NCBI GenBank assembly: GCA_947475715.1
Contig: CANJNY010000021.1
Span: forward strand, 1-51,644
Length of the DNA: 51,644 nt
From: Prolixibacteraceae bacterium
GTDB lineage: Bacteria > Bacteroidota > Bacteroidia > Bacteroidales > Prolixibacteraceae
Direction: 5' to 3'
Shown here: positions 1,888-45,267 of the stretch, piece by piece
Layout: every line of letters begins with the position of its first letter
Numbering within the stretch: position 1 is the first letter of the stretch
Program-made: the position numbers and the translations under genes
The notes under the pieces: model-generated
Databases searched by the model: none
Told to the model about the DNA's origin: nothing
The model's input: the letters and a program-made list of their open reading frames with translations, nothing else

Positions 1888-2538
1888 ATGTTCATTAGTA
1901 CAATTTTCAACTTATTATCATTGTTCACTTTTTGTTTCGGCAATAATCAAACCCCGATGCAAGATAATCCGGAACCAGTTTACCTTTCCAATCTGGAACG
2001 TGAAGTAATTAGTGAACTTAATCTGGCCCGATCTAAGCCCGGAGTTTATGCAGATTTTCTCACTTTGTACGCTGCGCAGTTTACAGGAAAAGAGTTTCAC
2101 GAATCCGGGAAGCCCATACTTCTTACCAAGGAGGGGAAAGCAGCTGTAATTGAGGCAATAAAGTTTCTTCGAAATCAAAAACCGCTGAATGGACTAACTG
2201 CGTCAAAGGGGATGAGTAAAGGGGCTAATGATATGGTCAAAATGCAGGAGACAACCTCACAGGTTGGGCACAATGGAATTGATGGGAGCACTTTTGCCGA
2301 ACGAATCAGCAGATATGGTACCTGGAGCGGATTGTGTTCTGAAAATATTGATTATGGGAATAACGTAGCACGCAGAATTGTCATGGCACTGATCATCGAT
2401 GATGGTGTAAGCAGTCGTGGCCATCGAAAAAGTATTTTCGAACCTGGATTTAGACGTGTAGGGGTCTCTTTTGGAGGACACAAGACTTATGGTTATATGT
2501 GCGTAATTGAGTACGCAGTAAGCTATACCGAAAAATAG
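1888..2538 (+). CDS. Secreted CAP-domain (SCP/PR1-like) protein
   Basis: 216 residues. The first ~18 residues are hydrophobic (FISTIFNLLSLFTFCFG) and look like a signal peptide. The rest matches the CAP superfamily: a helix with EVISELNLARSKPGVYADFL, then GMSKGANDMVKMQ, VGHNGIDGSTFAERISRYG, CSENIDYG, DDGVSSRGHRKSIF and GVSFGGHKTYGYMCVIEY. The two histidines and acidic residues of the usual CAP cavity (VGHNG...SENI...RGHR) are recognisable. Bacterial CAP proteins are extracytoplasmic and mostly of unknown function. The gene stands alone between mutA (divergent) and the actin-like gene (convergent). Confidence 0.85.
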   Translation: MFISTIFNLLSLFTFCFGNNQTPMQDNPEPVYLSNLEREVISELNLARSKPGVYADFLTLYAAQFTGKEFHESGKPILLTKEGKAAVIEAIKFLRNQKPLNGLTASKGMSKGANDMVKMQETTSQVGHNGIDGSTFAERISRYGTWSGLCSENIDYGNNVARRIVMALIIDDGVSSRGHRKSIFEPGFRRVGVSFGGHKTYGYMCVIEYAVSYTEK

Positions 2539-2674: not shown

Positions 2675-3721
2675 CTATTCAGTGTCGTTGTAAATTGTAA
2701 CGACTGTATTCGAGTTACCCAGGTCAATACCCACATAGGTGATATTTTCCTTTAATTCAAGGGTATTGGATGAAGGAACCATTGATACTGAATTTAAGCA
2801 ATACCCCTCACTGGCACAAAGATAAGGTTCCGGATAAACGATAACATCCAGAATATCCTGAAACTCTTCAATAAATAGTGTTACTAATTCAGTATACATT
2901 GCGCCACCGCCTACCAGGTAGATTTTAGTTGTTTTGGAGAAGTCTTCATCTGAATATTTCTTACGCATTGCAGGTGAAATAACCTCGTTATAATAGCTGG
3001 TTAGAGCACGCTTGCGCATCTCTAAAACATCAACTTTCCGACGGTTAATCAGAAAGAAACCACGCTGAAATGCACGTTCAATTTGCTGACCGGTAAGCAT
3101 ACTCAGGTAATAATTCTTTTCGATTTCGTTTTCGAGAATATTCACCGCATAATGAATCCCCTTTTCACTGTGTGCAGTACGTTGCACAATTCCTGATGGT
3201 GTTGAAAGAGCCAATTCAAAAGTGCCAAAACCAAGACTGCCGATAAAGAAGTTTTGTGTTTCAGCCATCTGACCCTGGCGAATTGCCTTAATGCAACCAT
3301 CGATTTCGGTCATTACATCAAACGCTGATACATTTACGCTAATATTTTCAACGCCTGTTCCGCCAAAAGTTCTGGTATCAAAACTAACCTGGTGTTTTCC
3401 CAAATAGAAATCTCTGGCACCTTTTTTATAAATAGCATGTGTAATAAACGGAAAACCGGTGGTAATCACCATTTTATTGTCAGTTCCCTGCGCTGCAATA
3501 ATTAAAGCAGTAAGCGCCATTAACTGATAATCAAGATCTTGCGCCGAACTATTTAAAAATTTATGAGGGGCGCTACCTTCGGTTAGTGCCATATTTCCAA
3601 TCAGATAATTACGCTGATTAAAATTATTGATTTTCATCCCTTCAATAAAATTGGCGGCTACTTTTGCAAAATCGACACTGGTTTCTTCGTAAACACTAGG
3701 GAATACATAGGATCGTTTCAT
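2675..3721 (-). CDS. Actin/ParM-like ATPase with apparently permuted motif order
   Basis: 348 residues. Nucleotide-binding motifs of the actin/ParM superfamily are present but in an unusual order. The protein starts at RSYVFPSVYEE (residues 3-13), a segment that in ParM-like proteins normally follows the first phosphate loop. TTGFPF is at 87-92, a phosphate-2-like loop IGSLGFGTFE at 160-169, the adenosine motif VGGGA at 270-274, and only at the end comes the phosphate-1-like segment VGIDLGNSNTVVTIY (330-344), normally the first strand of the fold. Joining the last residues (IYNDTE) to the first (MKRSYVFPS) restores the canonical order, which suggests circular permutation. There is no coding sequence upstream that could supply a normal N-terminus: an 83 bp AT-rich gap separates it from the bactofilin gene, with which it is probably co-transcribed. 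Likely a cytoplasmic filament-forming ATPase; partner and role unknown. The acidic residue normal in phosphate-2 is replaced (G161). Confidence 0.75.
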   Translation of the reverse strand: MKRSYVFPSVYEETSVDFAKVAANFIEGMKINNFNQRNYLIGNMALTEGSAPHKFLNSSAQDLDYQLMALTALIIAAQGTDNKMVITTGFPFITHAIYKKGARDFYLGKHQVSFDTRTFGGTGVENISVNVSAFDVMTEIDGCIKAIRQGQMAETQNFFIGSLGFGTFELALSTPSGIVQRTAHSEKGIHYAVNILENEIEKNYYLSMLTGQQIERAFQRGFFLINRRKVDVLEMRKRALTSYYNEVISPAMRKKYSDEDFSKTTKIYLVGGGAMYTELVTLFIEEFQDILDVIVYPEPYLCASEGYCLNSVSMVPSSNTLELKENITYVGIDLGNSNTVVTIYNDTE

Positions 3722-3804: not shown

Positions 3805-5178
3805 TCAGTTGAATAGTGATGAATAGTCATCAATTGGTAATTGACGAATAGCATCATTGAGAAAGAATTCACTTTTTTCAATTTCCTTATTCGTATTCAC
3901 AAGATCATTGTCATTAATTTTCTTACTGTTATACTTCTGTTGATCATTTTTATTTTCGATTGCCTTTGTATCGTGAAACCTTCCCGGACTTAACAGGTTT
4001 CTTAGCTCTTCAAACCCGGAAATATTGTAATTCTTTCCTTTTCTGGAATTTGGTGTTATTAAAGTTAGATCTGAACTATAGGGTTTTTTCCTCCCTTTTT
4101 TTATCTTCGACGAATCCACCTTAATCGGCTCACCCAGATTACCTGCGATTGAAATAGCGGCAGGAAGCGGGAACAGCAATTCTTCTTCCTGATCGCGAGT
4201 CTCAATTAAATTATCTTCAAAATCAAATTCAAGTAAGAGACTCTCTTTGTCGTGATCAGTAAAATTGGCGGCAGCAATAACGATTTCCTGATTATTATTT
4301 TCAACCATTTGCAATTCTGAAACTAAGAAATTAAACTTGTCATCTTCCTCAAGTTCGATCATTTCGATTGAATCCTGATACTCTGTTTCAAATAACAGTT
4401 CAGTTTCAACTGACTTAATATCAATAATATGATCAATCCCTGCCGGACTAATCTCTGAGACCTTAACCTGAACGATCTCTATTGGTAAAGTAACTGAAAT
4501 CTCTGCCTGATGTTGAATACTATCCTGAAATCCTACAATCTGGGATAATAATTCCGGTTGAAACTCCGATATTGAATCTTCCTCAATAATTACTGGATCT
4601 TTTTTCAGACTTACAGGTGCAGTATTTTCTACCTTTTCACCTGAAAATTTCGATATTATATCTGCTGAATTACCTGGCATTTGCTCCCAAAGTGATTTCT
4701 TAAGTGAGAATTCAGGTGAATCCGATTGATCTTCACGAACAAAATCTATTGTATCTTGCAAAGTCTGAGCAGGAGAATAGTTAGAGATTTGTTTCCGATT
4801 TGGCTCAACTTTAATCATTTCTTCAGCAAGGTAAATCTGAGCCTCGTCAATGGCTTCCAGTTTTTCGTAAGTAACAACTTTAGCCGTTATTGTGGCACCG
4901 TCCTTAACTTCAAAAACCTTGGTATACAAATTGCCAAATATTGAGGCTTTCTCATGAAGTATAGTAATGCCGGAAACAATTATATTTCCCTCAATTCTTC
5001 CGAAAACAACGAGATCTTTTGCCCGAAGGAATCCTTTTACGAATCCTTCAGCACCGACAATTACATTTTTATCTGATTCCACCTTCCCAAAGACTTCCCC
5101 ATCGATGCGTACATCAGTAGTAAAAATGAGTTCTCCGTTAATTTTAGAAGAAGAATTAATTAATGTAGGTATTTTCAT
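3805..5178 (-). CDS. Bactofilin with very long acidic C-terminal extension
   Basis: 457 residues. Residues ~5-110 are a bactofilin beta-helix: repeated short turns such as INGELIFTTDVRIDGEVFG, VIVGAEGFVKG, LVVFGRIEGNIIV, ASIFGNLYTKVFEVKDGATI. Bactofilins are polymerising cytoskeletal scaffolds, normally 100-200 residues. Here the beta-helix is followed by ~350 residues rich in Glu, Asp, Ser, Ile and Leu with little globular pattern, a basic patch (KIKKGRKKPYSS) near residue 365 and a hydrophobic-acidic end (AIRQLPIDDYSSLFN). The gene precedes the actin-like ATPase on the same strand by 83 bp with no terminator visible, so the two probably form an operon under the promoter at 5257-5288. The tail is a candidate docking region for the ATPase or other partners; that is inference. 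Confidence 0.87.
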   Translation of the reverse strand: MKIPTLINSSSKINGELIFTTDVRIDGEVFGKVESDKNVIVGAEGFVKGFLRAKDLVVFGRIEGNIIVSGITILHEKASIFGNLYTKVFEVKDGATITAKVVTYEKLEAIDEAQIYLAEEMIKVEPNRKQISNYSPAQTLQDTIDFVREDQSDSPEFSLKKSLWEQMPGNSADIISKFSGEKVENTAPVSLKKDPVIIEEDSISEFQPELLSQIVGFQDSIQHQAEISVTLPIEIVQVKVSEISPAGIDHIIDIKSVETELLFETEYQDSIEMIELEEDDKFNFLVSELQMVENNNQEIVIAAANFTDHDKESLLLEFDFEDNLIETRDQEEELLFPLPAAISIAGNLGEPIKVDSSKIKKGRKKPYSSDLTLITPNSRKGKNYNISGFEELRNLLSPGRFHDTKAIENKNDQQKYNSKKINDNDLVNTNKEIEKSEFFLNDAIRQLPIDDYSSLFN

Positions 5179-8961: not shown

Positions 8962-10057
8962 TTAATCTTCTCCTTCCGAAAATTCCATCAAAAATGCCTT
9001 TATAAATCCATCGATTTCGCCATCCATAACTCCCTGAACATTTGACGATTCGAATCCTGTTCTCACATCCTTGACCAATTTATAGGGTTGCATGGTATAG
9101 GAGCGAATCTGAGATCCCCACTCTATTTTTTTCTTGCCAGCCTCGATTTTGGTTACTGCTTCATGTCGCCTCTGAAGCTCAAGTGCATAAAGTTGTGATT
9201 TAAGCAGCCTGATTGCATTCTCCTTGTTTTGCAATTGTGAACGAGACTCCGTATTTTCAATTATAATACCCGAAGGTGCATGTTTAAGCCGCACTCCGGT
9301 CTCTACCTTATTCACATTCTGTCCGCCTGCCCCGCCTGAACGAAAAGTATCCCACGAAATATCACCTGGGTTTACATCAATGACAATGGTATCATCGACT
9401 AATGGGGCAACAAAGACAGAAGTAAACGAAGTCTGTCTTTTCCCCTGGGCATTAAATGGCGAAATACGCACTAAACGGTGAACACCATTTTCACTCTTGA
9501 GATAGCCGTATGCAAATTCACCATCTATCTCAATGGTGACACTTTTTACACCGACATCTTCCCCGGGAACAAAACTGGCCTCCCGAACCTTATATTTATG
9601 TTTCTCAGCCCATCTTAAATACATGCGCATTAACATATCGGCCCAGTCATTCGATTCCGTTCCTCCCGCACCTGCATTGATTTTCAAAACTGCACCCAAA
9701 CGATCTTCTTCACGACGGAGCATATTTTTAGTTTCAAGATCTTCGATAAGCCCCCTTACCTCAAGAAATTGTTCCTCCAGTTCACCTTCGGTAATTTCAC
9801 CCGCTTCGCTATACTCAAACATAATCTGCAAATCCTCAATCGCCTGATCGACAGATCTAAATCCGTCGGTCCATTGTTTGATCGAGCGGATCACAAACAT
9901 TTGCTTCTCAGCTTCTTTGGGATTATCCCAGAATTTGGGATCCTGGGTTTTTAATTCTTCTTCCTCAACACGGATTAATTTATTATCGACGTCAAAGAAA
10001 CCTCCTCAGCGCATCCCGGCGCTCAACAAGCTCTTTAAGCTGTTCCTTTAGGATCAT
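8962..10057 (-). CDS. prfB: Peptide chain release factor 2, programmed +1 frameshift
   Basis: Two overlapping reading pieces make one ~364-residue protein. The first starts at ATG 10057 (MILKEQLKELVERRDALRRF) and ends after 21 codons in CTT-TGA (TGA at 9992-9994). A +1 shift at CTT to GAC (9993-9991) continues as DVDNKLIRVEEEELKTQDPK and runs through to the TAA at 8962-8964. RF2 reads UGA and UAA; the SPF tripeptide (RISPFNAQG) that sets RF2 specificity and the catalytic GGQ (AGGQNVNKVE) are both present. Annotating only the uninterrupted ORF (from ATG 9900) would lose ~50 N-terminal residues. A TACCTTTG element lies just upstream. Confidence 0.95.
9992..10006 (-). promoter_or_regulatory. prfB autoregulatory frameshift site
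   Basis: Reverse strand reads AGGAGG-TTT-CTT-TGA-C: an internal Shine-Dalgarno (10001-10006), 3-nt spacer, slippery CTT and an in-frame TGA followed by C. This is the classical RF2 feedback site, where low RF2 stalls termination and favours the +1 shift. The perfect AGGAGG stands out because genes in this window show almost no Shine-Dalgarno before their starts. Confidence 0.93.
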
Positions 10058-12312: not shown

Positions 12313-13791
12313 TTAGCTTATTTTCATCTTCTCGATCCTTTTGACCACCAATTTCGAACTGATCATTGTTATCGGCAATCCTGTTCCCGGAACGGTGGAG
12401 GCACCGACATAGAAGACATTTTTATACACCTCATCAAAATTGGTTGGACGGAAGGCACCGATCTGCATCATTTTATGAGACAAGCCCAAACCACTTCCGC
12501 GGTGGAGATTAAACTGGTTTTGCCAGTCAATGGGCGAATAGCTTGTCCGTGAGATAATTTCAGGAACGATATCCTGACCAATACGCGCCGAAAAGTCGGC
12601 GATGATGCTATCGACAATCTCATCCTTATCATCCCAGTTTTTCTTAAACCTCAGATCGGGAACGGGACAGACGAAGAACAGCGATTCACACCCTTCGGGT
12701 GCACAGTCCGGATTATTCCGCGAAAGGACATTGACATAATAATAGGGCTTTTGAATGGTCCCTGTTGACTGAAAGATCTTATTGGCATAATCCTTGAAAT
12801 TATTGCCAAGATAGTAATTATGATGCTCAACCTGAGGTAATTTACACTTCAACCCGATATAGATCGTGAGCGGGCCCATGGTCCACTCCATCTTGTCGAG
12901 TTTTGCCTCTGAAAAGCGGGGGCGTTTAAAAATTTTACCCCGGAATGAGGCGGCATCACTGTTCACAACGATGATATCGCTTTGCCATTTTACACCATTC
13001 TGGTCAACAAGGGCATCCAGTTTTTTGCCACTCGACAGGTAATCGACAATTTCGGTATTGTAGGTGATTTTAACATTCGCTTTCTGAAGCTCCTCGACGA
13101 TCCCTTCAACAATCTTATACATCCCCCCTTCAACATTATAATATCCATCATGCTGAAATTCGGTATACGAGAGTAAGGTATAAACAGCAGGGGTATCGAA
13201 CGGGGTCCGTCCCAGGAAGAAAGCGACCAGTGAAATAATTTCACGGGCATCATCCGAAGAGAAATAACGGCATACCTGTTGCCAGAAATTCCTGAAAAGT
13301 ATCGGTAAATGAATAGGATTTACTTTCATCAGAGTTAGCAGATAGGAGAAAACTGAATTGTAGTTTTCCTTGATTACAATATCCACTGTATCATCAAAAA
13401 GCGCCTTGCCACTTTTAAGATACCTACGCATTTTGATTTCAAAGTCCGGCTCAACATCTTTAAACTGTTCAGCCAGCTTGTGAATATCTTTATAAAGCTT
13501 ATAGGTCTTTGGGCTTCTGCTGAAATTTACCGTATACAGGGGATCTAACTCGACATATTTAAACGGGAGTTCAATATTGCAATCATGGGCAAATTCCTTG
13601 AATTCATAAGACATACTGAAGAAACTTGGTCCCATGTCGAAGGTAAAACCATCTTTTTTTAACTGGTTAAGCCTCCCTCCTGCCTGACTGTTTTTCTCGA
13701 TAATCTCAACCTGATAACCTCTTTTTGCCAACCTTAGGGCAGTTGCCAGACCGCCTATCCCGGCGCCAACAACAAGAACTTTTTTTGTCAT
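12313..13791 (-). CDS. crtI: Phytoene desaturase (CrtI family)
   Basis: 492 residues, normal for CrtI. The N-terminal FAD-binding Rossmann motif is VVGAGIGGLATALRLAKRGY with the following EIIEKN...GGRLNQL; the C-terminal family signature is present as GASTVPGTGLPITMISSKLV. CrtI dehydrogenates phytoene stepwise to lycopene. It is the last gene of a same-strand carotenoid cluster running from 18450 to 12313, in which genes overlap or are separated by at most ~11 bp. No second desaturase (CrtD type) is in the cluster, so any 3',4'-desaturation would have to come from elsewhere or not happen. Confidence 0.92.
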   Translation of the reverse strand: MTKKVLVVGAGIGGLATALRLAKRGYQVEIIEKNSQAGGRLNQLKKDGFTFDMGPSFFSMSYEFKEFAHDCNIELPFKYVELDPLYTVNFSRSPKTYKLYKDIHKLAEQFKDVEPDFEIKMRRYLKSGKALFDDTVDIVIKENYNSVFSYLLTLMKVNPIHLPILFRNFWQQVCRYFSSDDAREIISLVAFFLGRTPFDTPAVYTLLSYTEFQHDGYYNVEGGMYKIVEGIVEELQKANVKITYNTEIVDYLSSGKKLDALVDQNGVKWQSDIIVVNSDAASFRGKIFKRPRFSEAKLDKMEWTMGPLTIYIGLKCKLPQVEHHNYYLGNNFKDYANKIFQSTGTIQKPYYYVNVLSRNNPDCAPEGCESLFFVCPVPDLRFKKNWDDKDEIVDSIIADFSARIGQDIVPEIISRTSYSPIDWQNQFNLHRGSGLGLSHKMMQIGAFRPTNFDEVYKNVFYVGASTVPGTGLPITMISSKLVVKRIEKMKIS

Positions 13792-13796
13792 CTCTC

Positions 13797-14528
13797 TTAT
13801 TTATTTTTTTTGATTAGCTGAGGATACAACTCATCGCGAACCCATTTAAAATCAGGTTCAATCCTGAGGATCTCCTCATAAATTAATTTTTCACGAACCT
13901 CGTCATTAAGCATCTCATAGGTCTGAGCAATAGTGGTTAATAAACTCAGATAGTTCCAGTCATTCTTAATCTCCAGTGAATTATTCTCCAATAATACCTT
14001 CGCTTTTAAGAAATTCTTTAATGCATCCAATTTAGATCCACCAAACACAGCGGGTGAGTATAATTGCACATTTCCATTCTGAACATAACCAAAGAAATCC
14101 GTCGGATCAAGAGCTATAGACTCCTTCGCACATGCAGCACTTTTAGGCCCAATAAAAGGGGCGGAAAAAATATTCAAACCGATATGAAATCCGTAAAAAG
14201 CCGATTTGTATCCATTGACCTTAGCCAGGAAAGGTTTCTGCGATTCCAATAATTTTAAATTCTCTTCTGCCAGTTTAAGATAATCTGAGGCTTCCTCTTT
14301 TCTCTTTGTTCCCAGGCACCAACCAATATAACCATACTGATAATTGATCAGTTCAAGTACCTGCTCATTATTTTTTTCTTTTTTATTTTGAAGCTGATCA
14401 ACAATAACTTTCCAGGCAGACATCGAATTAGTGATATAGGCCTTGTAAATGTCACTTTTATCACTTCCATAAAGTGATATTGCAAACAAGAATAAAAAAA
14501 CAGTTAAGTAATATCCCTTCCTTTCCAT
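13797..14528 (-). CDS. Exported TPR-like protein in carotenoid cluster
   Basis: 243 residues. The start MERKGYYLTVFLFLFAISLYG is a signal peptide or anchor. The mature part is helical with TPR-like spacing (NYQYGYIGWCLGTKRKEEASDYLKLAEENLKLL; LTTIAQTYEMLNDEVREKLIYEEILRIEPDFKWVRDELY). No catalytic motif is visible. It overlaps the glycosyltransferase gene upstream by 25 bp and precedes crtI by 5 bp, so it is translated as part of the carotenoid operon. A periplasmic role, for example in placing or trafficking pigment, is a guess; the specific function is unknown. Confidence 0.7.
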   Translation of the reverse strand: MERKGYYLTVFLFLFAISLYGSDKSDIYKAYITNSMSAWKVIVDQLQNKKEKNNEQVLELINYQYGYIGWCLGTKRKEEASDYLKLAEENLKLLESQKPFLAKVNGYKSAFYGFHIGLNIFSAPFIGPKSAACAKESIALDPTDFFGYVQNGNVQLYSPAVFGGSKLDALKNFLKAKVLLENNSLEIKNDWNYLSLLTTIAQTYEMLNDEVREKLIYEEILRIEPDFKWVRDELYPQLIKKNK

Positions 14529-15598
14529 TGAAACTGATAAAAGAATTTATTTATAAAAGCCTTGTATACAATAAGTCCCATTGTAAGTTGCTGCGGAACT
14601 AAACAGAGAATATTTGTTGCAATATTCTGATTACTCGATAATGAAACAAAAATTCTGGTCACCAGAAATATAACAAAATAGGGTAAAGAAATGTTGAGTG
14701 AAAATGAGATGAAAACAGGAATAAATCCCAAAGTTGTAATAAGCCAGAATAGGGTTGCCAAAAGGAATGAATTACCAAAGAAGGCGGTGATATTCTTTGA
14801 AAAACCATTAACCGCCTCATCAAAGCCACGATACATCCTGCATTGGACCGATTCATTCCCGGTAAGGCAAGCCACCGGAATTCGATTTTGTTTAAAATAG
14901 CGTGCAATGAGAATATCCTCTACTTTATTTTTCCTGGCAAATTCGTGAGGGAGTAGTTTTTTATAAACCTGATTCTTAAACAACATAAACTGACCATTGG
15001 CAGCAGCCAGGGATGGAAACCCCGATCCTAAAACCAGTGGAAGCGGCAAAAGTGACAGTAAGATATAATTCATGATGGGAACTGTCATTTTCTCACCCCT
15101 GGTAACGATTAACTGATCCGGAAAAACGGAAAGAAGTCCAAGCTTGAACTTTTCGGCATAGGCTGCAGTGCGTTGCAAGATATCATCCCCGATACGCACA
15201 TCAGCATCGAGAAATAGCAGGTAGTCCCCTTTTGCCTGAAGGGATAATGAGTGACAACCAAAATTCTTTCCAAGCCATCCATCGGGCAATTTATCTGACT
15301 TTATTAATTTTATCCTGCCATCGGCTTGAGCCATCTCTTCAACAACCAGAGGTGTCCTGTCTTCAGATAAATCATCAAAGACAATAATTTCAATATTCGC
15401 GTAAGATTGGGTAATCAGATCATTTAAAATAATACCAATATTATTCGCCTCATTACGGGCCGGAATTAGAACTGAAATCAGAAAATTCTCCTTTAGTTCA
15501 TAGTTGTGTAAATCGGGTTTAAAAACCAAGTTAAATGCGGCAACAGTAAATTGCAGCAACGTGAAGGAGATAACAACTATTGCAAGACTAAGCATCAA
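14504..15598 (-). CDS. Family 2 glycosyltransferase, probable carotenoid glycosyltransferase (CruG-like)
   Basis: 364 residues. An N-terminal membrane segment is followed by a GT-A domain: SVLIPARNEANNIG, the DDLSEDRTP region, LLFLDADVRIG (DxD-type metal site) and EDILIARYFK with a QCRMYRGF acceptor-site motif; three or so C-terminal membrane helices follow. The arrangement resembles membrane GT2 enzymes and CruG, the carotenoid 2'-O-glycosyltransferase found beside cruF. Next to a CruF-like hydratase and an acyltransferase, the likely job is adding a sugar to the tertiary hydroxyl made by the hydratase. Start overlaps the acyltransferase stop (ATGA-type, 4 bp). Confidence 0.75.
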   Translation of the reverse strand: MMLSLAIVVISFTLLQFTVAAFNLVFKPDLHNYELKENFLISVLIPARNEANNIGIILNDLITQSYANIEIIVFDDLSEDRTPLVVEEMAQADGRIKLIKSDKLPDGWLGKNFGCHSLSLQAKGDYLLFLDADVRIGDDILQRTAAYAEKFKLGLLSVFPDQLIVTRGEKMTVPIMNYILLSLLPLPLVLGSGFPSLAAANGQFMLFKNQVYKKLLPHEFARKNKVEDILIARYFKQNRIPVACLTGNESVQCRMYRGFDEAVNGFSKNITAFFGNSFLLATLFWLITTLGFIPVFISFSLNISLPYFVIFLVTRIFVSLSSNQNIATNILCLVPQQLTMGLIVYKAFINKFFYQFQWKGRDIT

Positions 15599-16269
15599 CT
15601 ATCTGATTTTAATGCATTTGAATTGAGGCATTGTTTATAAAAGTTATTATAGGCATCCTGAATCGAACCGGAATCAAATTTATCCCCCATATATTCAGAG
15701 ATATACATAAAAAGACCCGGTTTCCGGTCGGAGAAGTAATCGACCAGATTGGCTGAAAATATGATCTGCAGCGGTCCTGATCTTTCAATAATGTGTTTGA
15801 CTCCCCCTTCAAAATGGAGTGGATAGGTATAAGCTGATTCAATTTTACCCTGGGGAAACACCAGGACCAAATTTGCCCTGTCAGCCAGGATTTCTGCCGT
15901 ATAATTAATTGATTCAATTGCACTTCGAGACCCTTTTCGAACAGAGTATCCTCCCACAAGGTTAGGATGAGTTAACTTCACCAATTGCTCTTCCAGCATC
16001 ATAAAATGAAACTTTCGTTTAAAAAGCCTGACATTTAAATACATGGCTAGAATCCCATCCCACCAGCTGAAATGGTTCGCCAATAAAAGGATTGGGAGTT
16101 TTCGATCATTAAATTCACCTGTAACCTCCACGCAGCCGAAATGTCGGCGAATGGTCCAGCCTGAATAAAACTTAGAGAATGGATAAAAGAAAAAATGGTG
16201 CCTTGCTTTTATAACCATCGTTATTATTTTACAAAAAACAATATCGCAATAAAGAAGAAAAACTGGCAA
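15595..16269 (-). CDS. PlsC-type 1-acyltransferase, probable carotenoid-glycoside acyltransferase
   Basis: 224 residues. The lysophospholipid acyltransferase signature H-x4-D is present in LLANHFSWWDGIL, with later blocks GGYSVRKGSRSAIESI and VFPQGKIES equivalent to the family's second and third motifs. General PlsC enzymes acylate lysophosphatidate, but this copy sits inside the carotenoid operon, between the CruF-like and glycosyltransferase genes, and probably esterifies the carotenoid sugar. Its start overlaps the preceding gene by 46 bp; an internal ATG (about 16218, MVIKARHHFFFYP) is an equally plausible start that would remove the overlap. Confidence 0.77.
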   Translation of the reverse strand: MPVFLLYCDIVFCKIITMVIKARHHFFFYPFSKFYSGWTIRRHFGCVEVTGEFNDRKLPILLLANHFSWWDGILAMYLNVRLFKRKFHFMMLEEQLVKLTHPNLVGGYSVRKGSRSAIESINYTAEILADRANLVLVFPQGKIESAYTYPLHFEGGVKHIIERSGPLQIIFSANLVDYFSDRKPGLFMYISEYMGDKFDSGSIQDAYNNFYKQCLNSNALKSDS

Positions 16270-16880
16270 ATAAAAATGGTCGATGCCACCGGGTTAAATG
16301 TGGGAACTTTCAACCATCTCAATAATCCATGAAAAGTTGCAGCCAATATAAACCATGCAAGGTAGTTCTGCAAAGGGATGTTATTTCCGGACCAGCTCCA
16401 CATATCCATCAAAGGTGCCACATGTTCCAGTACCCCATCATAAAGGACCAATAATAATGAAGCCAAAAGAATTTGAATCAGAGGATGCCACCTTGTCAAC
16501 ACCAGCAATGAAGCACTGGAATAAACCACCATCACCCAATTAATACCGATCATTAAGGGAGTATTAAATAACTTAAAGCCCAAACCATCGCCATAGGTAT
16601 AATGACCAAAGATAAGATGAGTTTTAACCCCTAAAACCTCGACAAAATAACTCAGGATGTAAATTAAAAGAAATCCGATCATCGTATGGCTCTGCTTCCA
16701 CGATTTATGAAAAAGCATAATAAGAATAAAGCTCAGTAAAAGAGCAAAAGGAATCAATGACTTAAAAATTTGCTGGGTCACCGGAATTGTAATCCCTGCG
16801 AATCCAACTGAATAAAATAGGATTACGATCCATATTGTTCTTGATTTATTCCGAAGCAAATAATTTGCAATTAGTTCCAT
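16224..16880 (-). CDS. Carotenoid 1,2-hydratase, CruF/DUF422 family
   Basis: 218 residues, integral membrane with six or seven hydrophobic helices. Family blocks of CruF/bisanhydrobacterioruberin hydratase (DUF422) are seen: FVEVLGVKTHLIFGHYTYGDGLG, PLMIGINWVMVVYSSASL, LLVLYDGVLEHVAPLMDMWSW. The acidic E/D residues in these helices are typical. The enzyme adds water to the psi-end of lycopene or gamma-carotene, giving a 1'-hydroxyl that a glycosyltransferase can use. It is 3 bp from the cyclase gene upstream. Confidence 0.83.
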   Translation of the reverse strand: MELIANYLLRNKSRTIWIVILFYSVGFAGITIPVTQQIFKSLIPFALLLSFILIMLFHKSWKQSHTMIGFLLIYILSYFVEVLGVKTHLIFGHYTYGDGLGFKLFNTPLMIGINWVMVVYSSASLLVLTRWHPLIQILLASLLLVLYDGVLEHVAPLMDMWSWSGNNIPLQNYLAWFILAATFHGLLRWLKVPTFNPVASTIFICQFFFFIAILFFVK

Positions 16881-16883
16881 GGT

Positions 16884-17594
16884 TCAGATCGATGGGGATT
16901 TTACAGATTTTCCTGCAAAAAATACAACTAAATAATTAATTAACAGAATATTAAACAGAATTAAACTGAAAGCATAGCTTAAATCCTCCACAGGAACTGT
17001 GAATATCCGGATGCCAAGGTTTTCAGAATTATTATACCATACAACAGGTTCGGCAATAAAGCTTCCTGTAAGTACTGAATTTACAAGAAAGAACGGAACC
17101 AGTATAACGGGGAAGGTAAGATAAAACCTGCTTAGAACAGCGTTTTGAATCGATGAAGCCAATAAAATGGCAAATATTGCAACCGTGAGATAGATTGAGG
17201 TATACATTTTTTGCAGATTCAATACGACTACAATACCCATGAAAAGGACCAGTACAATGGAGACAATGGTTGTCTGCTGTCGGGTAAGTTGCCGGGTTGG
17301 GAAGAGGAAAATCAGGGTATCATGCAAAAAAATGCTGGCGTATGGGATCACGATAAAGAACATCCACTCTTCAAGGGGTAAATTAAGGAGCAGAATACCG
17401 GAATGGTATTTTGGATTAAATCCCCAGATTCCATGTACTGTAAATAAAATATCTCCTCCAACGTAAAAAGCGCCAACAATGAAAAGTGATATTGCTACCG
17501 ATTTTAATTTGATATAAAACTTGAGTTTGCGGTCATAACTGTAAATCAGAGGGACCAGAACCGCTAAAATTTCGAGTGCCAGATAAACATACAT
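16884..17594 (-). CDS. Lycopene cyclase, CrtYcd/CarR-type membrane protein
   Basis: 236 residues, two tandem three-helix lycopene cyclase domains. The first carries the PLEEWMFF motif (typical LEE..FF of CrtYc) followed by IVIPYASIFLHDTL; the second carries the related EDLSYAF segment. These heterodimer-derived cyclases make beta-rings on lycopene ends in the inner membrane. Together with the CruF-like hydratase for the opposite end, the predicted product is a monocyclic (gamma-carotene-type) skeleton. 10 bp downstream of crtB, same operon. Confidence 0.83.
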   Translation of the reverse strand: MYVYLALEILAVLVPLIYSYDRKLKFYIKLKSVAISLFIVGAFYVGGDILFTVHGIWGFNPKYHSGILLLNLPLEEWMFFIVIPYASIFLHDTLIFLFPTRQLTRQQTTIVSIVLVLFMGIVVVLNLQKMYTSIYLTVAIFAILLASSIQNAVLSRFYLTFPVILVPFFLVNSVLTGSFIAEPVVWYNNSENLGIRIFTVPVEDLSYAFSLILFNILLINYLVVFFAGKSVKSPSI

Positions 17595-17604
17595 TGGATT
17601 CAGA

Positions 17605-18450
17605 TTAAATCATTCGAAGCTTATGTACTACTATTGCCTTTACGAGCAAGGCCATTTTCATCCCTCCTGATATTCTGATACGGCCTGTCAATATTTTGGC
17701 TGCCGAAGTATATTTAATCTTCTTTACCAACCGCTGATAATAATAAAATGCGATGAGTACAGCCAGTTTAGCATTTTGAGGCAACTCTGAGATCCCTTTT
17801 CTGGCTGAGAAAAAGTCTTTTTCGATATCTTTAATAATTTCAGCTTTTATCTGGTCATTAAAATTCCCATTTCCCATTTCTGGAAAATATTGCCGTTCGA
17901 GATATTCGGTATCGCTTCGAAGATCGCGCAGGAAATTGACCTTTTGAAATGCCGACCCCAATCTCATTGCAGGCTCTTTTAATGCTTCATATCTGTCGGT
18001 GTTGCCATCAGTAAAAACCGCAAGGCACATGAGTCCGACAACATCTGCCGATCCATAAATATACTGATCAATTTCTGATTTGCTGGTATAGGTTGTTTTG
18101 GTTATATCTGATCTCATGCTAGACATAAAGGCCTGAATAAGATCATCGGAGATTTGGTAACGTTTCACGGTCAGCTGAAACGAATGTAAGACCAGATTAA
18201 GGCTAATCCCGCATCTTAAGGCCTCATAATAATCTGCTTCGAATTTATCGAGCAGTATTTCTTTATCATGACCCAGAAATGTGTCAACTATTTCATCAGC
18301 AAGGCGGACAAAACCATAGATACTATAAATCGCATTCTGTATCTGAACATCCAAAAAACTTACCGCAATTGAAAATGAGGTGCTGTAAGTGCGGGTAACT
18401 AACTTGCTTACTTTAAATGAAACCTGGTCATAAAGATTTACTGAATCCAT
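17605..18450 (-). CDS. crtB: Phytoene synthase
   Basis: 281 residues. Both aspartate-rich Mg-diphosphate motifs of head-to-head prenyl synthases are intact: RLADEIVDTFLG (DxxxD) and FQKVNFLRDLRSD (second DxxxD). It joins two geranylgeranyl diphosphates to phytoene, the first committed step of the pathway. First gene of the carotenoid operon; no GGPP synthase is in the window. The ~280 bp gap upstream shows no canonical promoter that I could pick. Confidence 0.92.
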   Translation of the reverse strand: MDSVNLYDQVSFKVSKLVTRTYSTSFSIAVSFLDVQIQNAIYSIYGFVRLADEIVDTFLGHDKEILLDKFEADYYEALRCGISLNLVLHSFQLTVKRYQISDDLIQAFMSSMRSDITKTTYTSKSEIDQYIYGSADVVGLMCLAVFTDGNTDRYEALKEPAMRLGSAFQKVNFLRDLRSDTEYLERQYFPEMGNGNFNDQIKAEIIKDIEKDFFSARKGISELPQNAKLAVLIAFYYYQRLVKKIKYTSAAKILTGRIRISGGMKMALLVKAIVVHKLRMI

Positions 18451-40067: not shown

Positions 40068-40625
40068 ATGTATATCGATTCAACCGATACGTTTAACAAT
40101 ATTTATACTACCTTTTACAGAAAGTCCTATCTTTTTGTAAAATCGTATGTTCATGATGAATTGGTTGCGGAAGATATCGTTTCGGAATCGCTGATCAAAC
40201 TTTGGGAAAGGATCAAAACTCAACCAATTGAACATGTAAGTTCTTTTCTCTTCACTATTTTAAAAAACAGTGCGCTCGATCATTTAAAACATGAAATCAT
40301 CGTGCGCAAGGCTTATCAATCTCTCCACGAAATTCACAACCGTGAACTTGAAATTAGGACCTCTGTACTTCAATCGTGCGATCCCAATGAAATTTTTTCT
40401 ACTGAAATCCAACAAATTATTCAGAAAACCCTGGATACTCTTCCTGAAAAAAGCAGACATATTTTTATGATGAGCCGTTTTGAACACAAAAGCAATAAAG
40501 AGATTGCAGAAATCTTCAACATCACAGTAAAAGGGGTCGACTACCATATATCACTTACTACTAAAGCCTTAAGAATTAATTTAAAAGATTATCTTCCTTG
40601 TTTAGTCTATCTGCTTCTCCAATAG
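40068..40625 (+). CDS. ECF RNA polymerase sigma factor
   Basis: 185 residues. Region 2 (YRKSYLFVKSYVHDELVAEDIVSESLIKLWERI) and region 4 (LPEKSRHIFMMSRFEHKSNKEIAEIFNITVKGVDYHI) are those of Bacteroidota SusC-linked ECF sigmas. It precedes fecR, susC and susD on the same strand. Expected action: released by the FecR protein when the STN-carrying receptor binds substrate, then transcribes the susC operon. Confidence 0.93.
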   Translation: MYIDSTDTFNNIYTTFYRKSYLFVKSYVHDELVAEDIVSESLIKLWERIKTQPIEHVSSFLFTILKNSALDHLKHEIIVRKAYQSLHEIHNRELEIRTSVLQSCDPNEIFSTEIQQIIQKTLDTLPEKSRHIFMMSRFEHKSNKEIAEIFNITVKGVDYHISLTTKALRINLKDYLPCLVYLLLQ

Positions 40626-40710
40626 AACAGCTTATTGACAGGTTATAATTTCATACTACAAAGCTGTGTTCTGCAAAGCTTAGGCAGATTACTGCCATCG
40701 ACAGACTCTC

Positions 40711-40757
40711 AAATCTAGTGAAAATTTAAAAAATGTTAAATCTTTCACTAGTGATTT
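40711..40757. repeat. Inverted repeat between sigma and fecR
   Basis: 9-bp perfect arms CTAGTGAAA/TTTCACTAG (40715-40723 with 40743-40751), extended by a further four pairs past a small bulge (40711-40714, 40754-40757). It sits in the 205 bp gap between sigma and fecR; no U-run follows, so a regulator site or a leader structure is possible. Confidence 0.5.
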
Positions 40758-40830
40758 AACCTTCTGAATCGTTATAGTTGAGTCCCAGGAGATTCAAATC
40801 CGAGCTAACAACAAAACCCATGGTCATCGA

Positions 40831-41781
40831 ATGAATAATGGTTCACTTATACGCTATATAACAGGCGACGCAACAGAGGAGGAGATTATCCACATTACTC
40901 AATGGTTGGATTCTGATTCTGAACATATGCGTGAGTTTCTCGCTATGCGTAAATTATATGATATCACCCTTTGGCAATCTGAAGATAAAGCGAACCATCA
41001 ATCATTACCTGTTAAATCTGGCATAAATTTTAGAATAGGGAAGTTCCTCTTAGATATTGCTAAGATTGCAGCAATTTTTGTATTAGCCATATTGGGAACA
41101 CTATATTACATCCAGTCTAATAAAAAACCTGAGCCGGTTTCGATGCAAACCATTCGCGTTCCGGCTGGTCAGCGAGCTGAACTCATACTTACAGATGGAA
41201 CAAAAGTATGGCTCAATGCCAAGACAACCTTAATCTTTCCGAACCATTTTGATGCACAAAGTCGTATTGTGACCCTTGATGGAGAAGGATATTTCGAGGT
41301 AACAAGCAATAAGAAACAGCCATTTACAGTGAAGACCCCGAATTACGACCTTAAAGTCTGGGGTACTAAATTTAATGTGTTAGCCTACTCAGGGAAGCCC
41401 TATTTTGAGACTGCTTTATTTGAAGGATCTGTTGAACTGCTGAATCCAGGTGGAGAAAAGGGGGAAATGATCAATCCAAATGAGCGGATATTTCTCGATA
41501 ATAACCACTTAAAAAGGGGAATAATCAATAACTTAAATCACTTTCTCTGGAGAGATGGGATGATTAGCTTCGATAACGAATCTTTTCCTGAAATGGTCCG
41601 AAAACTTGAGCTATACTTTGACCTTAAGATTATGGTAAAAAACAAATCCCTTCTTTCTTATACCTGCACAGGGAAATTTCGCACCAAGGATGGCGTAGAT
41701 CATATTCTGAAAGTACTTCAGTTGAGCAACCAGTTCAGGTTTAAAATTGATGACAAATTAAATATTATAACCATTGACTAA
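40831..41781 (+). CDS. FecR-family anti-sigma factor
   Basis: 316 residues. The N-terminal ~65 residues (RYITGDATEEEIIHITQWLDSDSEHMREFLAMRKLYDI) are the cytoplasmic sigma-binding part; one membrane helix at ~70-90 (IAKIAAIFVLAILGTLYYI); then the periplasmic FecR domain (IRVPAGQRAELILTDGTKVWLNAKTTLIFPNHF; LDGEGYFEVTSNKKQPFTVKTPNYDLKVWGTKFNVLAY) and the C-terminal DUF4974 (ISFDNESFPEMVRKLELYFDLKI). It connects the receptor's signalling domain to the sigma factor. Confidence 0.94.
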   Translation: MNNGSLIRYITGDATEEEIIHITQWLDSDSEHMREFLAMRKLYDITLWQSEDKANHQSLPVKSGINFRIGKFLLDIAKIAAIFVLAILGTLYYIQSNKKPEPVSMQTIRVPAGQRAELILTDGTKVWLNAKTTLIFPNHFDAQSRIVTLDGEGYFEVTSNKKQPFTVKTPNYDLKVWGTKFNVLAYSGKPYFETALFEGSVELLNPGGEKGEMINPNERIFLDNNHLKRGIINNLNHFLWRDGMISFDNESFPEMVRKLELYFDLKIMVKNKSLLSYTCTGKFRTKDGVDHILKVLQLSNQFRFKIDDKLNIITID

Positions 41782-41840
41782 CTAATATCCACTAAAAAAC
41801 CAAATTTGCCTATGTATTGAGAAACTATTATTTAAAAAAA

Positions 41841-41868
41841 GCCGGAAAATGCGTCAACATTTCCCGGC
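41841..41868 (+). promoter_or_regulatory. Hairpin in the susC leader
   Basis: Arms 41841-41851 and 41858-41868 pair with one mismatch (10 of 11 bp) around a 6-nt loop, ~60 bp before the SusC ATG and ~60 bp after the fecR stop. No U-tract follows, so it is more likely a leader structure or processing site than a terminator. Confidence 0.45.
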
Positions 41869-41930
41869 CAACGGTTAAAACCCGTCATCCCAATTAAAAA
41901 ATCAAGTAATAACCATTAAACAACAAATGT

Positions 41931-44900
41931 ATGAAATTTTATTTGTTAGAGGAATTGAATGTCTCAACTAAACTACTGATTCAAAAAATGAGAATTACAT
42001 GTTTTCTGCTTTTTGTGTTTGTTACAGGCGTCTTTGCAAACACTGCCAATTCACAGGTTGCCAAAGTTTCGATTAATTTGAAAAACGCAACTGTAGAAAA
42101 GGTCATTGATTCTATTGAAAAACAAACAGATTATCTGTTTGTGTATAATAAAAATGATATTGACTTAACCAGAGAAGTTACTGTTGATCTCGAAAACCAA
42201 TCCGTTGCAGGAGTATTATCCGAAATATTTGACAAAACAAATATTATCTATGCAATGGAAGGGAGCAGTATTATGCTCATGTCACGCTCCGCTGTTCAAC
42301 AACAAGGGAAGGCGATTATCGGAAGAATTACCGACAGATCGGGTATGGCTGTTCCCGGTGCAACAATTATTGTCAAAGGGACGACAGTTGGGGTAACATC
42401 AAATAATGATGGCTCTTTTTCAATGTCTGTACCTGAGGATTCGAAAACTCTTTCAATCTCCTTTGTGGGGATGAAAACTCAGGAGATTTCAATTGGCACC
42501 AAAAATAGTTTTATGGTGGTCATGGATGATGAGACGATCGGACTGGACGAAATTGTAGCTGTAGGTTATGGGGTACAGAAAAAGGTCAACTTAACCGGGG
42601 CTGTTGAAAATGTATCGATTAAGGATCTTGCAACAAGGCCATTAACAAACACCAGTGTCGCGCTTCAGGGCAAAGTATCCGGTGTTTATGTAATGCAGAA
42701 TTCCGGACAACCGGGCAGGGACTACGGGAATATTTTAATTCGTGGAGTTGGAACACTGAACAACAATAATCCGCTGATATTAATTGATGGGATAGCTGGT
42801 TCAATGAACGATGTTAACCCAATGGATGTTGAAAGCATCTCCGTTTTAAAGGATGCAGCATCAGCAGCCATCTACGGTAACCGGGCAGCAAACGGAGTAA
42901 TCCTAATTACAACAAGGCGTGGACATGGTGAAAAGATGCATGTTGAATATACCGGATTTATGGCTGTTCAGAATGCCACCTATCTGCCTGAAGTGCTTAA
43001 TTCGTATGAGCATGCCACTCTTTATGAGGAGGCTGCAAAAAATTCGGGAAAGCCATCCAAATATACTGCGGATATGATCGCCAAATACAAAGCAGGTGGC
43101 GACCCACTTTATCCCAATACCAATTGGCAGGATGTTTGGTTTAAACCGGCAACAATGAAGAGCCATTTTGCCAGACTTAGCGGCAGCACGGATGTTCTCT
43201 CCTATTCATTTTCGGGGGGCTACCTCGACCAGGATGGTGTTTTATTAGGAACAGGCTTCAAGAGATATAATTTCCGTTCCAACATTGATGCCTATTTTCT
43301 GAAAAACAAAAAGCTCCATGTGAGCACCAACATGGCAGGTATCCGTTCGGATATGGAAGAATCTTCATACGGATCTACCGGTGTAATCCGGGCTATTAAC
43401 CGAAATGTGCCTACAGATGTAGTTTCCTGGCCTGATGGCTCATATGGACCTGACAGAAACTATGCCCTATACAAAAGCGGTGGATTTAACAATAGTTTAA
43501 AAAATGGTTTCACGGGCAATATTCATGCCGATTATCAGGTTATCAAGAACTTAACCCTTGAAACAAATTACGGTGTTGACTGGGTTCATTCCCTTTCGAA
43601 GAACTTCTGGCCTGATATCACCCAATATACAAGTCTTGCCAATTACACCAATAAACGTCCAACCTATACGAACTCAGAACTCACTGAAGGGAATAGCGAG
43701 ACCATGGCGACAACTTTCAATGCATTGATTCGTTACAAGGCAACCCTTATGGATGTTCATAATTTCAATCTGTTTGGTGGATATTCGGAAGAAACAATGA
43801 TGATTGATTATTCCAGTGGATACCGGAAATACCTTTTGAGCAGTCAGCCACAATTAAATATTGGTGACCAGTCAACCCAGACCAATAGTGGCGGGGCTGA
43901 TGCCACCGGATTACGTTCCTATTTTGGCCGTGTTAACTATGATTTTAAGGGTAAATACCTATTGGAAGCCAACGTACGTTACGATGGTTCATCCCGTTTT
44001 GCAAAAAACCAGCGGTATGGGACCTTTCCATCTGCTTCGGCAGGATGGAGAGTTTCTGAAGAATCATTTCTGAAAGATAACCCAATAGTGAATAATTTAA
44101 AACTCAGAGGGTCGTGGGGACAGTTAGGTAATCAGAATATTAACACCTATTATGCTGCTTCCGATATTCTTGCCACCGGTGCCAATTACATCTATGGCGG
44201 AACCTTTACTCCGGGTGTTGCCGTAACCACGTTAACAAACAAGAGTGTATCGTGGGAAACCACAACCCAAACCAATTTTGGACTTGATGCCAATTTATTC
44301 AAAAAACTGAGTATTACAGCCAACTATTTTTGGAAACAAACAGACAATATTCTTATGAACGTTCCGATTCCGGTAACACTTGGGGCTTTAAATACCCCTT
44401 ACCAGAACCTGGGATCCATGAAGAATACAGGTTGGGAATTAACTCTTGGATACAATGATAAAATAGGTAACGATTTCACATTTGATGCCAACTTAAACCT
44501 GTCGCACTTTAAAAATGAAGTGACTAACTTAGGTGGTTTAGGTCCAATCTATGGCAGTTCTACGATTCTTAAGGAAGGTGAATCCTACTATTCCTTTTAT
44601 GGTTATGAGGCGACGGGAATTTTCCAGAACCAGGCTGAAATTACTGCTGCACCCAAACAATCCGAAAATCCAAAACCAGGGGATATCCGGTTTAAGGATC
44701 TCAATGGTGACGGTAAAATCACCCTTGACAAAGATCGCAAGGTTCTGGGCAAGCAGGTTCCAGATTTGCTCTATTCTTTGCAGTTAAACTTTGGATATAA
44801 AGGATTTGATTTTAAAACATTCTTTCAGGGAGTTGCAGGTATTTCAGCTTACAGCTCACTCGAATTGGTTTCTCCTTTCTTTAACGGTGCCAGTGGTGGT

Positions 44901-45233
44901 GCATGGTTAATGAACCGTTGGACACCTGAGAATCCAAGTACAACTCAGCAACGGGTATTTCTTGATGGGGTTCGTGGCGGAATTACTTCTTCCTATTACC
45001 TTGAGAACGCCTCTTATTTCAGGTTGAAAAACATTGAATTAGGCTACACAGTGCCACAAACCCTGTTGTCAAAAATCGGGGTAGCCGGATTACGTGTATT
45101 TACCAACGTTCAGAATGCATTTACAATTACGAAATACAAAGGATTTGATCCTGAAAAGTCTCCGGGCAATACACGTAGTGATGCACATACTCAGGTGAGA
45201 ATTGCTTCACTGGGATTATCAGTTCGTTTCTAA
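41931..45233 (+). CDS. SusC/RagA TonB-linked outer membrane receptor with STN signalling domain
   Basis: 1100 residues. After a signal (MRITCFLLFVFVTGVFA from an in-frame Met ~20) comes the STN domain (VSINLKNATVEKVIDSIEKQTDYLFVYNKNDIDLTREVTVDLENQSVAGVLSEIF), then the carboxypeptidase-D-like repeat (GRITDRSGMAVPGATIIVKGTTVG), the plug (VGYGVQKKVNLTGAVENV; IRGVGTLNNNNPLILIDG; DAASAAIYGNRAANGVILITT) and a beta-barrel that ends in LGLSVRF. It imports oligosaccharide or glycopeptide together with its SusD lid. The STN domain marks it as a sigma/FecR-coupled receptor. Confidence 0.96.
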   Translation: MKFYLLEELNVSTKLLIQKMRITCFLLFVFVTGVFANTANSQVAKVSINLKNATVEKVIDSIEKQTDYLFVYNKNDIDLTREVTVDLENQSVAGVLSEIFDKTNIIYAMEGSSIMLMSRSAVQQQGKAIIGRITDRSGMAVPGATIIVKGTTVGVTSNNDGSFSMSVPEDSKTLSISFVGMKTQEISIGTKNSFMVVMDDETIGLDEIVAVGYGVQKKVNLTGAVENVSIKDLATRPLTNTSVALQGKVSGVYVMQNSGQPGRDYGNILIRGVGTLNNNNPLILIDGIAGSMNDVNPMDVESISVLKDAASAAIYGNRAANGVILITTRRGHGEKMHVEYTGFMAVQNATYLPEVLNSYEHATLYEEAAKNSGKPSKYTADMIAKYKAGGDPLYPNTNWQDVWFKPATMKSHFARLSGSTDVLSYSFSGGYLDQDGVLLGTGFKRYNFRSNIDAYFLKNKKLHVSTNMAGIRSDMEESSYGSTGVIRAINRNVPTDVVSWPDGSYGPDRNYALYKSGGFNNSLKNGFTGNIHADYQVIKNLTLETNYGVDWVHSLSKNFWPDITQYTSLANYTNKRPTYTNSELTEGNSETMATTFNALIRYKATLMDVHNFNLFGGYSEETMMIDYSSGYRKYLLSSQPQLNIGDQSTQTNSGGADATGLRSYFGRVNYDFKGKYLLEANVRYDGSSRFAKNQRYGTFPSASAGWRVSEESFLKDNPIVNNLKLRGSWGQLGNQNINTYYAASDILATGANYIYGGTFTPGVAVTTLTNKSVSWETTTQTNFGLDANLFKKLSITANYFWKQTDNILMNVPIPVTLGALNTPYQNLGSMKNTGWELTLGYNDKIGNDFTFDANLNLSHFKNEVTNLGGLGPIYGSSTILKEGESYYSFYGYEATGIFQNQAEITAAPKQSENPKPGDIRFKDLNGDGKITLDKDRKVLGKQVPDLLYSLQLNFGYKGFDFKTFFQGVAGISAYSSLELVSPFFNGASGGAWLMNRWTPENPSTTQQRVFLDGVRGGITSSYYLENASYFRLKNIELGYTVPQTLLSKIGVAGLRVFTNVQNAFTITKYKGFDPEKSPGNTRSDAHTQVRIASLGLSVRF

Positions 45234-45267
45234 TCAATATTGTATAATAACCTCAAATATTATCATT

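Follow-up and report, generated by a model that had tools for sequence, protein, structure and literature searches.

Actin, MreB, ParM and Hsp70 relatives begin with a phosphate-1 (P1) hairpin. The known ParM and Alp proteins form filaments, and bactofilin, which is unrelated to actin, is a beta-helical polymer without nucleotide. The ParM-type proteins of plasmids have an N-terminal P1 and an acidic residue in the phosphate-2 (P2) loop. Their chromosomal counterparts Dh-cParM1 and Cb-cParM, which are accompanied by ParR cassettes, were described in 2025 (excerpts of PMC12270681). FcmB, a cyanobacterial protein with a role in cell shape, was presented in the same year as the fifth bacterial actin family and, like the protein described here, is a bacterial actin other than MreB (excerpts of the FcmB paper). 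The excerpts of neither paper mention permutation or bacteroid* terms, and those of the FcmB paper do not mention bactofilin. Searches of the open-licence literature, with preprints and most subscription papers outside its scope, returned no account of an actin that is permuted in nature.

The window, which is the whole 51,644-nucleotide stretch of Prolixibacteraceae DNA that was analysed, contains an actin-like gene in which P1 is located at the opposite end of the protein. The open reading frame (positions 2675-3721, minus strand) starts with ATG, has no internal stop and encodes 348 amino acids. The protein begins with a strand that normally follows the P1 hairpin (residues 3-12; 3686-3715, minus strand) and carries the FPS motif within the segment FPSVY (residues 7-11). 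Further motifs are a short segment with a glutamate at the place of the catalytic Glu or Gln of MreB, ParM and actin (residues 138-142, E139; 3296-3310, minus strand), the P2 loop, the usual aspartate of which is Ser162 (residues 160-169; 3215-3244, minus strand), and the adenosine motif VGGGA (residues 270-274; 2900-2914, minus strand). A variable linker in which the old C-terminus is joined to the old N-terminus (residues 312-326; 2744-2788, minus strand) leads to the C-terminal P1 hairpin (residues 327-345; 2687-2743, minus strand) with the motif GIDLGNSNTVV (residues 331-341). The Pfam profiles ALP_N (35.1 bits, cut-off 26.3) and MreB-like_C (32.1 bits, cut-off 27.8) cover residues 3-133 and 178-276, respectively. 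The ALP_N match lacks the first 16 of the 148 profile positions and begins at position 17. MreB_Mbl scores 12.5 bits, which is below its cut-off of 27, and the "partition protein" family PHROG 691 matches residues 5-292 with an E-value of 2.4e-17. The protein has a single match in its own genome.

The likely partner of the actin gene is a bactofilin gene with a long acidic tail (3805-5178, minus strand; PF04519, E 2.7e-20, residues 5-101), which is located on the same strand 83 bp upstream. On the other side, a convergent gene encodes a CAP-domain protein (1888-2538, plus strand; PF00188, E 9.1e-10) that belongs to a cluster of seven genes, one from each of the seven loci of the genus. A terminator-like inverted repeat with A/T runs, read from the sequence and unscored, separates the two convergent genes (2570-2621). 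Elsewhere in the window, a gene with a +1 programmed frameshift (8962-10057, minus strand), which we take to be prfB-like, has a short first frame that begins MILKEQLKELVERRDALRRFL and ends with CTT TGA behind AGGAGG, after which the long frame continues. Presumably, the genes at 12313-18450 (minus strand) form a carotenoid-like cluster with a phytoene desaturase, a phytoene synthase, two cyclase-like membrane proteins, a glycosyltransferase and an acyltransferase, and those at 40068-46797 (plus strand) are consecutive genes for a sigma factor, a FecR-like anti-sigma factor, a SusC-like protein and a SusD-like protein.

The original prediction placed P1 at the end of the protein, after the P2-like loop and the adenosine motif, and the N-terminus at FPSVY, and all of these positions were confirmed. 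It also proposed that joining the last to the first residues restores the usual order of an actin, which is borne out by rotation of the sequence. When the last 23 residues of the window protein were moved to the front, the ALP_N score increased from 35.1 to 46.0 bits and the match covered profile positions 1-139, whereas a scrambled version of the same 23 residues in front gave 34.8 bits. Moving P1 to the front of a distant relative likewise filled in the start of the profile and increased its ALP_N score from 34.1 to 42.2 bits. The hhalign comparison of 45 permuted proteins with 12 plasmid ParM-type proteins, in all 12 of which P1 is N-terminal as judged from their N-termini and aligned columns, had a score of 133.9 over ParM columns 27-323 without rotation, and P1 formed a separate weak match to ParM columns 3-16 with a probability of 16%. 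In a rotation scan, the score reached a maximum of 163.1 over ParM columns 3-323 when the permuted alignment was re-cut at core column 312. The plateau of the scan, core columns 308-320, is at the variable linker. The P1, FPS, P2 and adenosine motifs of the permuted family align with those of all twelve ParM-type proteins. Scans in steps of 12 columns against three ParM subgroups, which together comprise 11 of the 12 proteins, peaked at column 312 each time, with scores increasing from 77 to 89, 88 to 111 and 65 to 73, whereas three ParM-ParM control pairs scanned in the same steps peaked at zero rotation.

When the permuted sequences were rotated and placed in a tree with the ParM sequences, a branch with a support of 99/98 had all 45 permuted proteins on the same side, although the tree carries long-branch warnings and the very long ParM L123 joins adjacent to the permuted group. 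Of the plasmid ParM/StbA and PRTRC-D proteins, the two that were scanned with Pfam have ALP_N and MreB-like_C in the same relative order as the permuted family. Sequence searches against solved structures gave weak matches, the best of which was chromosomal Dh-cParM1 for both family profiles (E 1.3e-3 for A2 and 3.7e-4 for A5); as in the permuted family, this protein and Cb-cParM are actin-like and chromosomal. Rotation of the profile brought little gain, with an E-value of 3.1e-4 for Dh-cParM1 and a change from 2.4e-3 to 7.7e-4 for DnaK. The matches to the DnaK and MreB structures occur piecewise and in permuted order, with every piece weak. In a rotation test against MreB, global mode placed the maximum of the permuted family at offset 300 but that of the ParM control at 108 rather than at 0, and in local mode the pieces never joined; the test is unreliable and was kept out of the argument for the permutation. 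Judged from these alignments, the protein is almost certainly circularly permuted, and the permutation is a fixed property of the whole family.

The genome searches for family members covered Bacteroidota. In a search of 61 genomes, the gene was found at full length in 7 of the 18 genomes of the genus, the six other copies being 87-95% identical to the window protein, and no match to the window protein was found in the 43 genomes of other genera. A profile built from the seven genus members detected the family in 22 of 393 genomes and 14 of 207 genera of the order. A wider profile detected it in 4 of 295 genomes from a class-level sample and in 17 of 247 from a phylum-level sample, each count including the window's own genome. 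The members analysed comprise a set of 45 different full-length proteins, including that of the window, and five near-identical copies from the genus that were omitted from this set. The original prediction suggested looking at homologues for a C-terminal P1, and all 50 full-length members, which represent at least two orders and at least two classes of Bacteroidota, carry P1 there or before a tail. The opposite case, homologues with an N-terminal P1, was not encountered in the phylum in an insensitive ALP_N search of 345 genomes. This search returned 11 matches in 10 genomes, all of which start at profile positions 16-21, the C-termini of those in G922 and G945 being unread. Because such a search has low sensitivity for partial profiles, and the corresponding search of the genus matched none of 18 genomes even though the window genome carries the gene, the count is a lower bound and the absence of unpermuted ALP_N proteins is unproven. 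ALP_N and MreB-like_C were recognised at E-values up to 0.1 in 22 and 20, respectively, of the 24 members of alignment A2.

The P1 motif is present exactly once in each of the 45 proteins. In 41 of them, it starts 15-31 residues before the C-terminal end, and in the remaining four (L051, L060, L061 and L062) it starts 108-139 residues before the end and is followed by a tail. Three of these four tails have a similar ending (GKFLKTGMW / HKFLISGTW), and FK or FS is at the terminus of eight of the 45 members, L051 included. The tails and ends may be tethers or partner-binding ends. One copy (L036/L038/L059 of genome G066), which was also left out of the set of 45, is interrupted by stop codons or a frameshift, and the P1 motif is still found at the end of its final piece. 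Among 72,556 plasmid records and 50,697 phage records, none matched the window protein, within the limits of these collections. A distant member had weak matches to ParM/StbA in nine plasmid records and none in the phage records, and no permuted relative was among them. Three scans of viral contigs yielded no relative.

The P1 residues G331, D333, G335, N336 and T339 are identical in all 45 aligned members. When the 45 proteins are aligned with the 12 ParM-type proteins, no variation occurs within the permuted family at D333, E139, G164, G166, E169, G271 and G272, or at P8, S9 and E12 of the N-terminal strand. The catalytic Gln/Glu before P2 is retained as E139 in 45 of 45 members, whereas a glutamine is present at this place in all 12 plasmid ParM-type proteins. 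The acidic residue of P2, which is found in all 12 ParM-type proteins (aspartate in ten, glutamate in two), is absent from all members of the permuted family, in which position 162 is occupied by serine (41), glycine (3) or asparagine (1). Since D333 and E139 are invariant and position 162 is S, G or N, the family has retained the aspartate of P1 together with the catalytic glutamate and has given up the aspartate of P2. The spacing from P2 to E169 is that of MreB; unlike in the permuted family, residue 162 of MreB is an aspartate and P1 comes first, as seen in the four MreB proteins inspected. The counterpart of E139 is MreB E140, the role of which is taken from the excerpts of PMC3137890. 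The same excerpts cite slower dynamics of MreB from B. subtilis after a change at the position of D162 and state that D162G cells are viable. Judged from the loss of the P2 aspartate in the sequences, hydrolysis by the permuted actin may well be slow.

Selection on the permuted actin gene is strongly purifying. The dN/dS ratios relative to the window gene are 0.019-0.040 for six relatives of the same genus and 0.053-0.063 for two more distant ones, and are rough because dS is 1.1-2.9. Residues 326-344 differ from those of each of the six same-genus relatives by 9-16 synonymous and 0-2 non-synonymous changes. Within the genus, the linker has clearly more non-synonymous change than P1, and its length varies among the sequences of alignment A2. 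The C-terminal P1 is not a chance match, because its five key residues are identical in 45 of 45 members and it has accumulated so few non-synonymous changes.

The flanks of 49 loci were compared, with L028 (from G360) and the second copy in G871 omitted; the loci are not independent, as seven of them are from one genus. A bactofilin gene on the same strand is nearby in 23 loci, with 26 such genes in total. In 12 of the 29 loci that belong to the window's order (Bacteroidales), bactofilin is directly upstream, and in three of these 12, all from genome G405, a second bactofilin is directly downstream. The three bactofilin-actin-bactofilin cassettes of this genome are on three contigs (L053, L054 and L055). 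Among the other 20 loci, bactofilin is downstream in 11, all outside the window's class, and three of the 11 genes are approximately 1.0-1.2 kb away. A gene from one cluster intervenes before bactofilin in L087 and L090, and the L087 copy encodes a TPR protein. When ten neighbours were compared with Pfam, all nine that had been chosen as bactofilins matched PF04519, and the tenth was the TPR protein of L087. The pairing is not obligatory, since 26 of the 49 loci have no bactofilin neighbour. These include L011, the contig of which starts at the actin gene and does not show the upstream side.

Bactofilin forms the largest neighbour cluster after the actin gene itself (21 loci), and the next clusters are mainly confined to the window's genus. 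Within this genus, the long-tailed bactofilin is present in all seven genomes with the actin gene and in none of the 11 without it. The two genes are adjacent in six of the seven carriers and are split between contigs in the seventh (G005). Eight of the 11 non-carriers have short bactofilins only, with open frames of 129-154 amino acids, and no bactofilin was found in the other three, which are 64-78% complete. The genomes with a permuted actin contain 0-7 bactofilin matches each, with at least one in 22 of 23 and none in one. Given these low numbers, the same-strand proximity in about half of the loci looks far above chance in our judgement, although many of the loci are related. A separate MreB is present in all 12 carrier genomes tested. 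The neighbourhoods favour, by a modest degree, joint function of the permuted actin and bactofilin. Three features go beyond the original prediction: the neighbouring bactofilin, the absence of the P2 aspartate throughout the family and the family's breadth.

The same observations bear on other explanations. The C-terminal P1 could be given in trans to a neighbouring subunit by a strand swap, which would create an inter-subunit nucleotide site and let P1 exchange drive assembly. Such an arrangement would suit a P1 that is carried on a linker variable in length and composition, and the long extra tails after P1 in four of the 45 members, but the short member L044 has a spacer of roughly twelve residues between the last core motif and P1, which suits folding in cis, and we regard the swap as highly improbable. 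A chromosomal ParM that segregates DNA with a ParR-like adaptor and a centromere is suggested by the domain make-up, according to which plasmid ParM/StbA proteins are the nearest unpermuted relatives, by the PHROG 691 match and by the similarity to Dh-cParM1. However, clustering of the genes at the 49 loci identified bactofilin as the largest neighbour group and no recurring small adaptor-like gene, and the searches of plasmid, phage and viral sequences argue in the same direction, which makes a segregation system of this type improbable.

Alternatively, the protein could belong to the wider actin/Hsp70 superfamily as a nucleotide-dependent switch that does not polymerise and that acts on bactofilin or another target as a regulator. 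The loss of the acidic residue from P2 and the more than half of the loci that lack a bactofilin neighbour are consistent with a switch, which we nonetheless consider unlikely, as the domain make-up is that of ParM and Alp proteins, the filament formers. The idea of a truncated or decayed copy whose C-terminus resembles P1 by chance has one broken relative, that of G066, in its favour, and is refuted by the 50 intact permuted members, the low dN/dS ratios and the invariant P1, so that its probability is negligible. Two further explanations, a split gene whose P1 is encoded in an upstream frame and the remnant of a tandem duplication, were also rejected: the three frames of the gene's strand contain no second P1 within 113 bp upstream and approximately 135 bp downstream of the window gene, and each of the 45 proteins has exactly one motif.

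The reading that we prefer, and consider likely, is that of a putative actin of the ParM/Alp type that is old, chromosomal and circularly permuted and often acts together with bactofilin. The permutation probably happened once, early in Bacteroidota or before, and the permuted actin is probably not a plasmid-partition system. We consider a two-domain actin fold very probable for the protein. AlphaFold models calculated from nine sequences had mean pLDDT values of 38.4 with the window protein first and 40.6 with the most distant protein first, and a Foldseek search with the second, low-confidence model returned nothing at E-values up to 0.001, its top match being a non-actin (E 0.12); both poor models and the Foldseek outcome were given no weight either way. 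In the proposed mechanism, the C-terminal P1 hairpin would fold back in cis to the place of the first hairpin and complete the two-domain nucleotide cleft. ATP with Mg would be bound via D333, the catalytic glutamate E139 would be kept, and hydrolysis would be slowed by the replacement of the P2 aspartate with Ser162. The protein would assemble into filaments or patches, and, as proposed in the original prediction, the permutation could affect the polarity of polymerisation or the control by nucleotide. Where the two genes are paired, the actin would organise, or be anchored by, the nucleotide-free bactofilin polymer, and the paired system would be a shape or positioning scaffold additional to MreB.

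A more far-reaching proposal, which we put forward tentatively, is that the proteins constitute a separate class of permuted actins in several orders and classes of Bacteroidota, which would bind ATP with slow or no hydrolysis and form a composite cytoskeleton with bactofilin where paired, while partners or neighbouring subunits would control nucleotide binding through the C-terminal P1. That permuted proteins have been unrecognised so far could be explained by profiles of the usual order, which miss their first piece. A family that ends with P1 indicates that the actin fold tolerates a break in the centre of the nucleotide site and that evolution has preserved it. The permuted family is thus a natural test of which parts of the actin topology matter for polymerisation and hydrolysis, and its repeated bactofilin neighbourhood points to a link between the nucleotide-driven and nucleotide-free cytoskeletons of bacteria.
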